Assembly (NCBI RefSeq): GCF_900113135.1
Contig: NZ_FOOH01000019.1
Span: forward strand, 1-64,000
DNA length: 64,000 nucleotides
Source of the DNA: Salegentibacter agarivorans
GTDB lineage: Bacteria > Bacteroidota > Bacteroidia > Flavobacteriales > Flavobacteriaceae
Direction: 5' to 3'
The notes under the pieces are model-generated. The model did not search any database. It had not been told where the DNA came from and worked only from the letters and a program-made list of their open reading frames with translations. The position numbers and the translations under genes were made by a program. This document shows positions 58,064 to 63,603 of this stretch, in pieces; within the stretch, counting starts at the first letter, position 1; the number at the start of each line of letters is the position of its first letter.

Positions 58064-58759
58064 ATGAAATATATTATCATAGGATTAGGCAACTTTGGAG
58101 CTTCCCTGGCAGAGAAATTAACCTCTATGGGCAACGAAGTTATTGGAGTGGATAACAATTTGGATAAAGTTGAAGCTATTAAAGAAAAAATCACCCACGC
58201 TATAAGCCTTGATGCTACAGATTTTAACGCGGTGAGCAATTTACCTCTTGAAGATACTGATATTGTAATTATTGGAATTGGAGAAGATAAAGGCGCAAAT
58301 ATTATGGCTACGGCTTTAATGAAACAGTTGCATGTGAAGCGGTTAATTAGCAGGGCGGTTTCCCCTTTACAGCAAATGGTTTTAGAAGCTATGGGTGTAG
58401 AGGAAATAATTCATCCGGAAGAAGAAACGGCAGAGCGCTGGTCAAAAAAGCTAAACCTGGAAGGTGTGGTAGATTCCTTTGAGGTCACCGGCGAATACAG
58501 TATAGTTGAAAGTGAAATTCCAAAAGAATTTGACGGAAAAACCCTAGATGAAATTGGTTTAAAGAAGAAGTATAATATTATAGTGCTCACCACAATTAAA
58601 TATACTGAAGGTAAAAATGAAATTGGTTCTGCAAAAACGTTGTCCAATGTTCAGGGGGTTGCCACCGCAAAAACAGAATTACATTATGGCGATATTATGG
58701 TGTTATACGGAAACAATCAGGATATTAAAAAGCTCTTAAAAGAAATTAGAAAATCATAA
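58064..58759 (+). CDS. ktrA: Potassium uptake regulatory subunit, KtrA/TrkA family
   Basis: A 231-residue cytosolic RCK protein. The Rossmann domain (1-140) starts MKYIIIGLGNFGASLAEKL with GLGNFG nucleotide motif and an acidic residue after the second strand (VIGVDNN). The TrkA_C ligand domain (about 150-231) includes EIPKEFDGKTLDEIGL. It forms the octameric gating ring on KtrB. It is the last gene of the potassium operon and is followed by a perfect inverted repeat. Confidence 0.93.
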   Translation: MKYIIIGLGNFGASLAEKLTSMGNEVIGVDNNLDKVEAIKEKITHAISLDATDFNAVSNLPLEDTDIVIIGIGEDKGANIMATALMKQLHVKRLISRAVSPLQQMVLEAMGVEEIIHPEEETAERWSKKLNLEGVVDSFEVTGEYSIVESEIPKEFDGKTLDEIGLKKKYNIIVLTTIKYTEGKNEIGSAKTLSNVQGVATAKTELHYGDIMVLYGNNQDIKKLLKEIRKS

Positions 58760-58787
58760 TTTATTATAGAACGAGAATAGAGAACAA

Positions 58788-58848: not shown

Positions 58849-60048
58849 TTATAATCTCTCCTGTAACCGTTTAATATCGTCAGATATTTTTGAATCAATT
58901 GCCCTTGCATAAATCTGGGTAGTTGATAATTTGGTATGCCCCAAAAGTTTAGATACTGTTTCTATGGGAACGCCATTAGCTAAGGTTACCGTTGTTGCGA
59001 AAGTATGCCTGGCCGCGTGGAAACTAAGTTCCTTATCGATCTTTACCGCTTTGGTGATCTCCCGTAAATATTGATTGGTTTTCTGGTTGGAATAGACCGG
59101 AAGTAAAATATCACTCGAATGTACTTTTGGATGGTCCTGGTACTTTTCAAGAATTCGTTCGGCTTCGTCAAGCAAAGGGATTCTCAGCATCGTATTGGTT
59201 TTGATCCTTCTGGTGTAGATCCACTTATTCCCATCAACACCTATCTGAATATGCTTTTTCTTTAGCATTTTGACATCGCCATAGGCAACCCTGTATAACA
59301 ACAGAACACAAAAATATCTCGGTTGATATTGTGAGTAGATTTTTTGAAATCCTTTTCCTTGATCTTCTGTAATTCGGCTTTGGATAGGTAGACCATATCC
59401 ACCTGGTCAAAGCGGAGTTTAAATCTTTTGGTAGGGTTCTTTTCAATCCATTCTAAATCCTCAGCCAGGCGCATCAGTTTTTTAAAACGTTCCATATGTT
59501 TCATTACCCCGTTATTTTGAAGGCTGGGCAAGCCCCTTAAAAAACTTTCAAATCCCAGGGTAAATTGATAGTCAACCTGTTTTAAATAAATATCTGAGGT
59601 ATGATACTGGGCTTTTAAAAAATCTTTGAGGTAGTTTTCTGTAGTAGTATAGTTTTTCATAGTCCCATACTTTAAAACCTTACCCATTTTCTCCTTGTGA
59701 TATTTGATCAAATAGATAAGGGTATAATGTTGCTGGTCACTTCCCAGAAATCTACCTTTGACCGTCTGCGTGGTTACCAGCATCCCGTCTTTTAAAAGAC
59801 TGTCATGCGTTTTATAGAGTTGTGCCTTGGTTTCATCTATTTTTTTATTGATTAGCCGGCTTTCAGCACTGCTACCAGTAAGTTTATTGGCAGATTGGTT
59901 CCACTTATCCACCGGAATAGTTCGTTTTAAACTAATTTCTAATGATTTGCCGTTAACGGTCATTCGGGCATAGAGGAGGGCTAATTCAGGTTGCTTTTTT
60001 CTTTTTTCGAATAATAAAAGAAATGGAAAAGGTTTGACTGGTGCGCAT
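58849..60048 (-). pseudogene. Tyrosine recombinase (Bacteroidetes integrase), two frameshifts
   Basis: Read across two frame changes, the gene gives about 400 residues, the normal size. It starts MRTSQTFSISFIIRKKKK (ATG at 60048), changes frame at an A run near 59995-60005, continues PELALLYARMTVNGKSLEISLKRTIP with the SAM-like core-binding domain, changes frame again near 59285 at YTGL/AYGDVKML, and ends with the catalytic block HAARHTFATTV ... LLGHTKLSTTQIYA (Arg, His, His, Tyr). The Arg I position reads TGLAYGDV without arginine, as in IntDOT-like recombinases. It is probably inactive unless the frameshifts are sequencing errors. Confidence 0.85.
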
Positions 60049-60267: not shown

Positions 60268-60293
60268 TTTATGTTAAAATATAACTTGTAAAA

Positions 60294-60308
60294 GTCGGGG
60301 TGGCAGGA
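60294..60308 (-). other. tRNA-Pro 3'-end fragment: probable attachment site
   Basis: The minus strand reads TCCTGCCACCCCGAC. This equals the 3' strand of a T stem (CCTGC), a full acceptor 3' strand (CACCCCG), discriminator A and one more base, as in flavobacterial tRNA-Pro(UGG), whose 5' acceptor would be CGGGGTG. The rest of the tRNA is absent. Such orphan 3' ends are left where an element integrates into a tRNA gene. The identification of the tRNA is from memory. Confidence 0.5.
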
Positions 60309-60520: not shown

Positions 60521-63172
60521 TTAATCTTTTAAATCTAATCCAATTATACCTAAAAGATATATTTTAAACTTGTCCGAGATAAGTGAACTTGATTTTTTTA
60601 TTAAAGACTGAAAAGTTTGATGGTCATAATTCAAAAAATAGGTATTACCGTTATTTACAGATGCTTTATTGATATTACTAAACTTTCCAACTTCAATTTG
60701 AATTGAATACTCATTTTCAATTTCAACTATTAAATCCTGTAATAGTTCGGGAAATTGCTTTTTATTCATTTTCATTTCACTTAAAATAGAGGGATTTATA
60801 GCGGAAATATCTTGGCAAGGAATTGCAACTTCTTTGCAAATAATTTGAATAACTGTATTTAAGTTCACACTTTGCTGTGAAACATCGTGGAAGCTAACGT
60901 TAAAATTTATGTTTTTGAAAATAAAGTGACCTTTACTTTGTAGGTATTGTATAATTATTTTTTGAAAATCGGAGATTACATTAGAATTAATGCTAAATAT
61001 AATATCAATATTCTGAGATTTTAATTTCATAAATACCTCACTCAAACTTCGCCTTTGGTTTTCATATTCAACTATTATATGTTCTTTACAGAGAGAGATT
61101 AATTCTTTCTTCGAATAAAAATCTTGGTATGACTTATCATATAGAGGCTTTAATTGGTCATAATTTTGCAAATAAAACTGCAGATAATTGACTACAATTT
61201 GATATGTCTGTTGATTGCTAGATTCCAAACAATCTCTAAATAATTTCCTTAGCGCTAATGAGATTTCTCTTTGAACGGCTTGTGATTTATCCGTGGAAAT
61301 AATTTTCGTTCTAGATATATCAAAATCTATACTCTTAGGTGCAAAATTTATTTCTCCAACAATATGTGAGGGAAAACGGAAAGGTAGTATGGCGCTGTTA
61401 TGAGGACTGATAAAAAAACCGCAGTAGGAAGCGTATAATCCTTTAGTGGAATTATTTAAACCTAACTTCAATAAGTACCTATTATTTTCGACTGTGTAAA
61501 AAAATGAAGAGTCTTCCATATTCCATCTCTCTTCGATTTTCACTACTGAATCTCCGTGCTTGATTTCTAGATTATTAACATGTCTGCAGTACCTTCTTAT
61601 TGTATCATAAGCAGTATTAATATCAAATCCCTTTTTTAAGTAAACCCTAATTGATGTACCAGTTTTACTTTCTAATTCATTTTGAGAATTACTAAAATAT
61701 TTAAAACCTTTGAATACATCTTCAATTTCAAATTTGATCGAACCATCTTCCTCTGTTTTAGTATTAATAACTACTTTTTCTGCTGCGATAAAAGTACTAA
61801 TAAATCCAATCCCAAATTTTGATATAAGATTGGATCTTTGGGTGTTGTCATTATGATCTTGGCTAATGCTTTTTCCTATTACAGCGAAATGGTTTTTGAT
61901 AACATTTTTAGTCATTCCATCTCCCTCATCATATACTTCGATGAAATTAGATTCAGGATCTATCGTAATTATTATCCTAGGGGATGCATGAGAATTAGTT
62001 TCAATAACTCTATTACAAGCATCTACTGAGTTTTGTACAAGCTCTCTTGTAAATGCATATTTATCAGGGTATATTGACTCTCCAATCAATAGACCAACAA
62101 TCCGATCGACATCAGCTGTGTAACTATCTGGTAAATTTTCATCTTCATTGTTTGTATTCTCTGCTAATGCGTAAAGTCTCTCATTCTGTGGTAATAAACC
62201 AGATTCCTCTCCATTAGGTACTGAATCAGTATCCTTATCAAACCTATAGCCAGAACCTTTTATAAATTTTCTTGCCGAAATTTTATAAGTTTTTTCGTGT
62301 GGATCTAAGTCTAATAGGTTATATCCTGGTTGATATAAACTTGATGTTTCACTAGGGTTAGAAAATGCGGATCTGCCATTTATCGATAAATATCCGCCAT
62401 GCCCAGAGATTAGTCTTTCAGCTTCATATTTATGATTATGACCGAAAATAGCAATATCAAAATTCTTAGTTTTTAAAATGTTTTTAATCTCTGATTGTTC
62501 ATCTCCGTTTAAGGCAGGTAACGGATGATGAAATATAGCTAAGTTTAGATCCGTTTCTTCCTTTATAAAAAAATTTCGAGCTTTAAATAATTGACTATGC
62601 CCCATATAGTGTTGATCTCTTTTGAGATCTGGTGAACATCGCCAAGAATCATTTAATAATGCGAACCCAACTTTAAATTCTTTATTATCCCAAATGAATA
62701 AAGAATGCATATTGGAGAATGTATAATTTTCAGTTGAGCGGTGTAATTCCTTTTCAAAGGTTTTAAATTGCTCAATTCTTTTATTTTCATCTTTAATTTC
62801 ATTTTTTAAATCATCCACGTATTGGTTTGCTAATTTACAGTTTAACTTTTCTGACAGATAAAATTCATTATCCACTTTAATAAATTCTTGGTTTATATCG
62901 TGGTTGCCAGGAATGATCAAAAAATGATTAGGAGGAATATCTAATGCGTCACTTATTGGTTTAATAAAATTATCTTGAAAAAACTTATAAGGTTCTGGAC
63001 CAAGAGAATTACCTCCTTTGTCGACTAAGTCTCCTGTTATAAGTATCAAGTCTATTCTTTTTTCCTGACTAAAATTACTTAAATCTTCAATTAAAGATTC
63101 TACATAGTAATTTTTAAGATCTTCTTTATTTTTACTATTAAGATGTATATCTGAAAGGTGTACAATTCTCAT
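60521..63172 (-). CDS. Calcineurin-like phosphoesterase fused to an HSP90-type (GHKL) ATPase
   Basis: An 883-residue soluble protein. Residues 1-300 form a class III metallophosphoesterase with all metal motifs: SDIH (7-10), GD (47-48), GNHD (89-92), FHHP (214-217) and GHNH (244-247), closest in style to SbcD/CpdA-like enzymes. Residues about 355-600 are an HSP90/HtpG-like ATPase: FTRELVQNSVDACNRV (Glu377, Asn381), DEGDGM (415-420), SKFGIGFISTF (451-461). The last 280 residues are not recognised. The gene is more AT-rich than the chromosome around it. With a neighbouring XRE regulator and integrase remnant, a role in phage or plasmid defence is plausible (inference). Confidence 0.85.
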   Translation of the reverse strand: MRIVHLSDIHLNSKNKEDLKNYYVESLIEDLSNFSQEKRIDLILITGDLVDKGGNSLGPEPYKFFQDNFIKPISDALDIPPNHFLIIPGNHDINQEFIKVDNEFYLSEKLNCKLANQYVDDLKNEIKDENKRIEQFKTFEKELHRSTENYTFSNMHSLFIWDNKEFKVGFALLNDSWRCSPDLKRDQHYMGHSQLFKARNFFIKEETDLNLAIFHHPLPALNGDEQSEIKNILKTKNFDIAIFGHNHKYEAERLISGHGGYLSINGRSAFSNPSETSSLYQPGYNLLDLDPHEKTYKISARKFIKGSGYRFDKDTDSVPNGEESGLLPQNERLYALAENTNNEDENLPDSYTADVDRIVGLLIGESIYPDKYAFTRELVQNSVDACNRVIETNSHASPRIIITIDPESNFIEVYDEGDGMTKNVIKNHFAVIGKSISQDHNDNTQRSNLISKFGIGFISTFIAAEKVVINTKTEEDGSIKFEIEDVFKGFKYFSNSQNELESKTGTSIRVYLKKGFDINTAYDTIRRYCRHVNNLEIKHGDSVVKIEERWNMEDSSFFYTVENNRYLLKLGLNNSTKGLYASYCGFFISPHNSAILPFRFPSHIVGEINFAPKSIDFDISRTKIISTDKSQAVQREISLALRKLFRDCLESSNQQTYQIVVNYLQFYLQNYDQLKPLYDKSYQDFYSKKELISLCKEHIIVEYENQRRSLSEVFMKLKSQNIDIIFSINSNVISDFQKIIIQYLQSKGHFIFKNINFNVSFHDVSQQSVNLNTVIQIICKEVAIPCQDISAINPSILSEMKMNKKQFPELLQDLIVEIENEYSIQIEVGKFSNINKASVNNGNTYFLNYDHQTFQSLIKKSSSLISDKFKIYLLGIIGLDLKD

Positions 63173-63222: not shown

Positions 63223-63603
63223 TTATTTAAGAAGTTTCTCCAAATAAGCAACCTTATCCTTCTCCGCCTGAACAAGGCGTTCGTAAAGTTCAACTATTTT
63301 TTCAACTGGGTCTATTGTACAGAAGTAATTGTTATTATTTGCGCTGTTATCTTTGAAGGTGTTATTGATAATATTGAATACCGCTTCTTCACTAAAATGA
63401 CGAATTGCTTCAGGAGAAACTTTTAATACCTCTGAAACTTTATTAAGTGTTTCATCTTCCACTTTTTCGCTTTTTTCAAGGCTGGAAACACTTTGTTGGC
63501 TAATGCCTAATTCTTCGGCTAGAGTTTCTTGCTTCATTCCGCGTAGTTCGCGAATGCGGGCAATCTTGCGCCCTATATGGTTGGGTTTGGTAGTTGTTAT
63601 CAT
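63223..63603 (-). CDS. XRE-family helix-turn-helix regulator
   Basis: A 126-residue protein. The HTH_3 domain (about 10-65) contains IGRKIARIRELRGMKQETLAEELGISQQSVSSLEKSE. A C-terminal helix (DPVEKIVELYERLVQAEKDKVAYLEKLL) looks like a coiled-coil dimerisation segment. It lies 50 bases upstream of the phosphoesterase-ATPase gene on the same strand, so it may be cotranscribed and control it. Similar short regulators are common near mobile or defence genes in Bacteroidetes. Confidence 0.85.
   Translation of the reverse strand: MITTTKPNHIGRKIARIRELRGMKQETLAEELGISQQSVSSLEKSEKVEDETLNKVSEVLKVSPEAIRHFSEEAVFNIINNTFKDNSANNNNYFCTIDPVEKIVELYERLVQAEKDKVAYLEKLLK

Follow-up and report, generated by a model that had tools for sequence, protein, structure and literature searches.

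A predicted metallophosphoesterase-HSP90 fusion protein encoded on accessory DNA of Salegentibacter agarivorans

Results

The DNA stretch analyzed here (the window) comprises 64,000 nucleotides, positions 1 to 64,000, of contig NZ_FOOH01000019.1 of Salegentibacter agarivorans. Near its end, a single open reading frame (ORF) occupies positions 60521..63172 and encodes 883 residues, as the original prediction had it, although the strand was not given there. The plus-strand frame over 60521-63172 is full of stops, and the coding strand is minus, where 883 codons run from an ATG to a stop. At least five relatives, full-length or cut by a contig end, were aligned to this frame. The gene is AT-rich, with a G+C content of 29.7% compared with 35.5% in the window. 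Its product joins a calcineurin-like phosphoesterase (MPE) to an HSP90-type ATPase and is referred to as MPE-HSP90.

The DNA around the fusion gene is accessory and strain-specific. A trkA-like gene was present in 10 of 14 other congeneric genomes, and blastn showed that similarity to the window stopped directly after this gene (58753..58766, no strand assigned) in all five of these loci that were fetched. Next to this endpoint lies a split tyrosine integrase on the minus strand (58849..59963), whose two ORFs (58849-59301 and 59262-59963) overlap and match Phage_integrase, Phage_int_SAM_5 and Arm-DNA-bind_5; this is the integrase remnant that had been pointed out before. A genome sequence search further showed that 17 bp at 60292..60308 on the plus strand match the ends of three tRNA-Pro genes exactly. 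The 17-bp sequence recurs at three other places in the genome, each with a tRNA-Pro(TGG) whose 3′ end it overlaps, as judged from the coordinates; for its 15-bp core, the number of chance occurrences expected in the window is 0.00. The proposed att-like scar is thus supported by the tRNA-Pro repeat, and the accessory setting was confirmed by this repeat and by the loss of congeneric similarity near the trkA-like gene. The scar separates the split integrase from the fusion gene, with no tRNA gene nearby in the fetched stretch.

Inspection by eye past the window end revealed a putative second integrase ORF at contig positions 76124-77392. It also revealed genes for a C39-peptidase-type ABC exporter and an HlyD-like protein, as well as a short ORF containing a double-glycine motif, at contig 68061-73563 (L214:10062-15564), possibly a bacteriocin or RiPP export cluster of the same accessory stretch.

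An Xre-type HTH gene (63223..63603, minus strand; HTH_3, E 1.6e-12) is located 50 bp upstream of the fusion gene on the same strand and is possibly a local regulator. Such an arrangement, along with weak NCBIfam matches to HipB/Xre-type antitoxin models, could reflect a toxin-antitoxin or repressor-controlled unit in which the HTH gene is the partner. However, no HTH-like ORF was seen upstream in 5/5 relatives (by eye, among ORFs of at least 50 aa). The HTH gene was accordingly rejected as a conserved partner, and we regard this explanation as highly improbable.

The MPE covers residues 1-330 (62183..63172, minus strand). All the metal-site motifs listed in the original prediction were found in the translation, namely SDIH at residues 7-10, GD at 47-48, GNHD at 89-92, HH at 215-216 and GHNH at 244-247, and D8, H10, D48, N90, H91, H215, H216, H245 and H247 were identical in 6/6 MPE-HSP90 proteins. 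Pfam Metallophos matched residues 1-249 (E 1.5e-18). Defense-related models also matched: NCBIfam DS9_1, an anti-phage phosphoesterase, at residues 2-247 (E 1.3e-14, under its cut-off), PADLOC PDC-S60 at residues 1-309 (E 8.4e-43), that is, the MPE part only, and the PADLOC model "Effector, Endonuclease" at residues 2-249 (E 2.6e-28). By fold comparison, SMPDL3A was among the close folds; it is described as a cGAMP phosphodiesterase in PMC13092281. Calcineurin-type domains are given as predicted effectors of conflict systems in PMC8195603 and PMC7159879.

The lineage of this half was analyzed in an MPE tree of 27 rows, which was rooted on SbcD and hence provides no test of an SbcD-type nuclease reading. 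As shown by this tree, the six MPE-HSP90 MPEs form one clade (support 98/97), whose sister (100/99) consists of five stand-alone MPEs from the same family with 40-43% identity. Each of the five (L033-L037) lies directly upstream of a large ORF, of 1186-1194 aa in four and of 803 aa in one. The sole large ORF scanned (1/5) contained a NACHT domain (E 5.6e-7) and a partial match, far under cut-off, to the antiphage NACHT protein EruA (4.6e-11). These Flavobacteriaceae loci appear as a two-gene unit, an MPE of ~365 aa followed by the large ORF, for whose protein PADLOC gave no match. They contain the closest MPEs, but in them the MPE and the ATPase are separate genes and HSP90 is lacking. The next branch (90/89, below the starred level) comprised MPE-STAND fusions and a Klebsiella plasmid protein, and 3/3 of these fusions were full-length PDC-S60. 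One MPE-STAND fusion (3.7e-52, 177 bits) and the Klebsiella protein (4.6e-56, 190 bits) matched DS8_antiphage over most of their length; because both scores are under the 790-bit cut-off, they are relatives of DS-8 and not DS-8 itself. In the tree, the window MPE falls within a 15-row group with DS-8-like proteins at a support of 90/89.

The second half begins with an HSP90 N-terminal ATPase domain at residues 351-540 (61553..62122, minus strand). Pfam HATPase_c_3 matched residues 377-480 (E 6.7e-10), NCBIfam HtpG matched residues 351-539 (E 6.2e-24, under the model cut-off), HSP90 chains matched by sequence, and E377, N381, D415, G419, G454, G456 and T506 were identical in 6/6 MPE-HSP90 proteins; the HSP90-type ATPase with intact N, G1 and G2 boxes was thus correctly predicted. 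About 280 residues behind it had been left unassigned, and this description has to be revised, as they matched HSP90 middle and C-terminal domains by fold comparison. The middle domain spans residues 541-792 (60797..61552, minus strand) and contains R621, which was identical in 6/6 proteins. It is followed by a probable short C-terminal domain at residues 793-883 (60524..60796, minus strand), where fold matches to HSP90 structures of both domains reach residue 340-344 of the 344-residue model. A profile comparison with HtpG gave almost no signal for the two domains (probability 5%, in a weak alignment that placed R621 opposite HtpG R339), so their assignment rests on folds. As modeled, the fusion partner looks like a whole three-domain HSP90, with an ATPase, a middle domain with a conserved arginine and a short C-terminal domain.

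A different use of a GHKL-type ATPase would be DNA- or RNA-directed restriction, with the ATPase serving as a clamp like that of MutL-like or HgiDII/BbrUII restriction enzymes and the MPE as an SbcD-type nuclease. NCBIfam indeed gave weak matches to BbrUII/HgiDII (9.3e-9) and SbcD (3.6e-9), and PADLOC calls a similar MPE "Effector, Endonuclease". Nevertheless, both NCBIfam scores are far under the cut-offs (34.3 of 550 bits and 36.8 of 77.65 bits), and the C-terminal half folds as HSP90, not MutL-like, among the fold matches listed. Restriction is therefore considered unlikely.

An HSP90 tree was built by a quick method with 57 rows, in which HD-CE is a default label for rows not individually checked and odd-numbered HD-CE rows from L160 on were omitted. 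The six MPE-HSP90 proteins formed one clade (support 99) outside the HtpG clade (100; four HtpG rows as root), and their sister (98) was a TIR-HSP90 ORF (L138) on a long end branch. The window protein resembles HSP90/HtpG in the order of N, M and probably C domains, in the ATPase residues and in the middle-domain arginine, but differs by its fused effector, its short C domain and its place outside the HtpG clade. A separate HtpG-like frame (632 codons, G000:C25) is present in the window genome.

A scan of an 84,980-species collection identified at least five relatives of the same architecture with 43-51% identity. One comes from a Bacteroidetes MAG (51%), and the others represent four further Bacteroidota families: Pseudoflavitalea (51%), Pedobacter jeongneungensis (50%), Fibrella forsythiae (43%) and Botryobacter ruber (46%, truncated at the end of its contig). 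Because the architecture and the active sites are kept in five relatives, the fusion is not due to chance. Identity to the window protein was 52-60% in the ATPase, 47-52% in the MPE, 33-43% in the middle domain and 23-53% in the C domain. Of the four relatives that cover all domains, three had their lowest identity in the middle domain and one, Fibrella, in the C domain. A fast-evolving middle domain would fit a role in sensing, without demonstrating it.

The full architecture was not found outside the window genome among 60 relatives, 397 family genomes and 395 phylum genomes; these samples overlap, and the phylum sample was searched by single protein and by profile. Among plasmids, 290 records had a match, none over more than 80% of the query, and the best 40 of the 290 comprised six in the MPE part and 34 in the HSP90 part; with the Pedobacter relative as the query, one record was obtained, the Klebsiella MPE, and no full-length relative. 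Phages yielded 32 records without a full-length relative, the 30 matches listed being all in the HSP90 part. In viral contigs, the single-protein query retrieved no relatives. Queries A4 (29 loci, MPE part, one match reaching residue 351), A2 (59 loci, mainly ATPase) and A6 (3 loci, HSP90 part) likewise retrieved no full-length relative there. Aligning MPE and HSP90 fragments together led to misalignment, and separate alignments were used for each half. Pfam, NCBIfam and PADLOC yielded no named family that combines exactly this architecture with a non-defense role, and no conserved housekeeping context was seen across the six MPE-HSP90 loci.

Next, we consider the wider HSP90-effector family. 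A census covered 74 loci (L139-L212), of which two had no ORF and five were dropped with an ORF start close to the ATPase; the remaining 67 HSP90-type relatives were scanned, and 56 contained HD-CE and five contained MPE. The TIR-HSP90 ORF L138, which lies in the same Fibrella genome as an MPE-HSP90, matched TIR_2 (1.3e-17) and HATPase_c_3 (4.5e-14), and ThsB-like (Thoeris-type TIR) genes were found for 3/8 scanned neighbors of TIR-HSP90. Judging from domain matches, the HSP90 chassis is thus a carrier of at least three kinds of predicted effector domain, MPE, TIR and HD-CE. Both HD-CE-HSP90 (PF24391 plus PF13589) and TIR-HSP90 resemble the window protein in having an effector-type domain before an HSP90-type ATPase, whereas HD-CE or TIR takes the place of MPE as their effector; Pfam detected no HD-CE in the window protein up to E 1. 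The L138 ORF (L138:7593-9059, Fibrella forsythiae) ends past the region of the middle-domain arginine. It is followed by an ORF of 208 aa in another frame, whose weak alignment (17%, E 0.079) to the C-terminal part suggests that the gene is possibly broken.

The five MPE-containing members of the census (L166, L188, L189, L190 and L202) are long fusions of 1174-1288 aa with ~600 residues before the ATPase. Their hosts are Clostridia-type Bacillota and one Chitinophaga, and they form a separate HSP90 lineage; a single origin of all MPE-HSP90 fusions was rejected, since grouping the long type with the window type gave an AU p of 0.0004 in the HSP90 tree. The long fusions being a separate line, the joining of MPE with HSP90 apparently took place two or more times.

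PP5 is a phosphatase that acts with HSP90 in animals. By analogy, MPE-HSP90 could be a stress chaperone-linked phosphatase, in which the fused MPE removes phosphate from clients bound to HSP90. PP5-HSP90 complexes, one of which is known from the title of 8gae, were among the fold matches, and a phosphoesterase and an HSP90 do share one chain. However, related MPEs have NACHT/STAND partners and show kinship to DS-8, the gene has a patchy distribution and lies in strain-specific DNA, and TIR and HD-CE stand in the place of the MPE in relatives. Taken together, we consider a client phosphatase distinctly unlikely.

Neighboring genes were scanned with PADLOC at a threshold of E 1e-10. The 77 neighbor ORFs of the six MPE-HSP90 loci gave one match each to mad3, SNc+LTD and HTH_VI (at most 3/77), whereas eight HtpG control loci with 96 ORFs gave CARF_2OG (5), PDC-M43B (2) and Csa3 (1), or up to 8/96. 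The defense-island enrichment put forward as a check was accordingly not observed. Ten HD-CE-HSP90 loci, hand-picked from the scan, with 103 ORFs matched 224 PADLOC families, a number that is not a gene count, as many models match one gene. Their neighbors include type I R-M, Hachiman HamA and HamB, Kiwa KwaB, a CBASS cyclase and a 2TM effector. These results indicated that the wider HSP90-effector class accompanies defense genes, but the MPE-HSP90 subfamily does not do so visibly.

The SMPDL3A-like fold of the MPE raises another possibility, that it removes the cyclic nucleotide of another system, for regulation or counter-defense, with HSP90 as a stability module. On the other hand, no cyclase-type PADLOC match occurred among the 77 neighbors at E 1e-10, and quenching would be at odds with the TIR or HD-CE domains of relatives. 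We deem such a quenching role very unlikely.

Discussion

According to PMC13092281, DS-8 (NCBIfam NF053861) loses defense upon mutation of MPE or NACHT residues, and DS-9 likewise requires its MPE for defense. The window protein resembles DS-8 and PDC-S60 in carrying, at the N-terminus, an MPE from a related lineage whose metal motifs are the same, in the ATPase behind it and in being a single gene. Nevertheless, their ATPase is NACHT/STAND and that of the window protein is HSP90: Pfam detected no NACHT/STAND family up to E 1 and HATPase_c_3 instead, and DS8_antiphage was not among the 11 NCBIfam families matched up to E 1. By homology with DS-8-type MPE-ATPase proteins, the MPE would be the effector and HSP90 the switch.

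From the computed architecture, the conserved active sites and lineages of both halves and the accessory location, we propose, with slight preference, that MPE-HSP90 is an accessory anti-phage protein encoded by one gene and built as sensor, switch and effector, in which HSP90 replaces the STAND sensor and the MPE is the effector. The sensor/effector logic suggested by the original prediction fits the relatives, as the MPE lineage occurs with NACHT/STAND ATPases, the one tested member of the wider group, DS-8, is anti-phage, and the HSP90 lineage includes TIR. The ThsB-like genes near TIR-HSP90, the defense genes at the HD-CE-HSP90 loci and the SMPDL3A-like fold also favor it. Speaking against it are the missing defense-island enrichment, the lack of a full-length relative among the plasmids, phages and viral contigs searched, and the 90/89 support of the node shared with the DS-8-like branch.

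With ATP, the HSP90 dimer closes, and HSP90 also binds client proteins. Because of these properties, the simplest model would be a client-triggered closure that activates the MPE. The HSP90 half would fill the place of the NACHT/STAND ATPase of related proteins and sample phage-made or phage-disturbed proteins as clients. Its ATP-driven dimer closure might then free or pair two MPE domains, which may hydrolyze nucleotides or a nucleotide signal and thereby arrest the growth of the phage, probably at a cost to the cell. The sensor role assigned to HSP90 derives from its position in the protein and from general properties of HSP90. That bacteria have chaperone-based sensing is shown by bNACHT25, a bacterial NLR-like protein that senses a phage coat protein via the chaperone DnaJ (PMC12169576).

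A bolder version, which we hold as tentative and rather doubtful, is that a complete HSP90 was recruited as an immune receptor. Its middle domain would bind phage proteins, for example structural ones during folding or assembly, the ATP-driven clamp closure by which clients are normally remodeled would instead switch on a fused nucleotide-destroying enzyme, and lineages would have swapped MPE, TIR and HD-CE. If true, HSP90 would serve as a chassis for receptors, in parallel with NLR/STAND proteins. NLR immune receptors of animals and plants are supported by HSP90; an HSP90 in the position of the NLR ATPase would shift the picture from chaperone-assisted sensing to the chaperone as sensor. The proposed anti-phage role is testable by a few point mutants, there being one gene with two defined active sites, and related MPEs with NACHT or HSP90 partners permit direct comparison of both switches.

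Nicastro et al. are said to have proposed, in 2023, Calcineurin-CE and HD-CE effectors and HSP90-related modules as STAND-domain analogues. Their HSP90-effector immune proteins reportedly combine a nucleotide-targeting effector with an HSP90 module, a description that the window architecture would fit; the class is therefore probably already predicted in print. The earlier view that no such architecture is described thus held in part: the exact MPE-HSP90 protein was not found in the searchable literature, which did not include Nicastro et al., but its MPE half has a tested defense relative in DS-8 and its class was reportedly foreseen. Added here are the complete HSP90 anatomy, the lineage trees of both halves, the TIR sister and the mobile context.

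Further branches of the HSP90 tree were also noted. An archaeal 641-aa HSP90-type gene of Methanimicrococcus (L149:7893-9818) falls inside the long MPE-HSP90 branch; its ORF shows no Pfam effector, although the tree labels it HD-CE, and its effector was possibly lost. Furthermore, HSP90-type proteins of ~640-745 aa (L139, L141-L143, L146-L148, L151, L153, L154, L156 and L157) form a clade in Desulfobacterales and other delta-type bacteria, where the N-terminal region had no HD-CE match in one protein and a weak one in the sole full ORF scanned.
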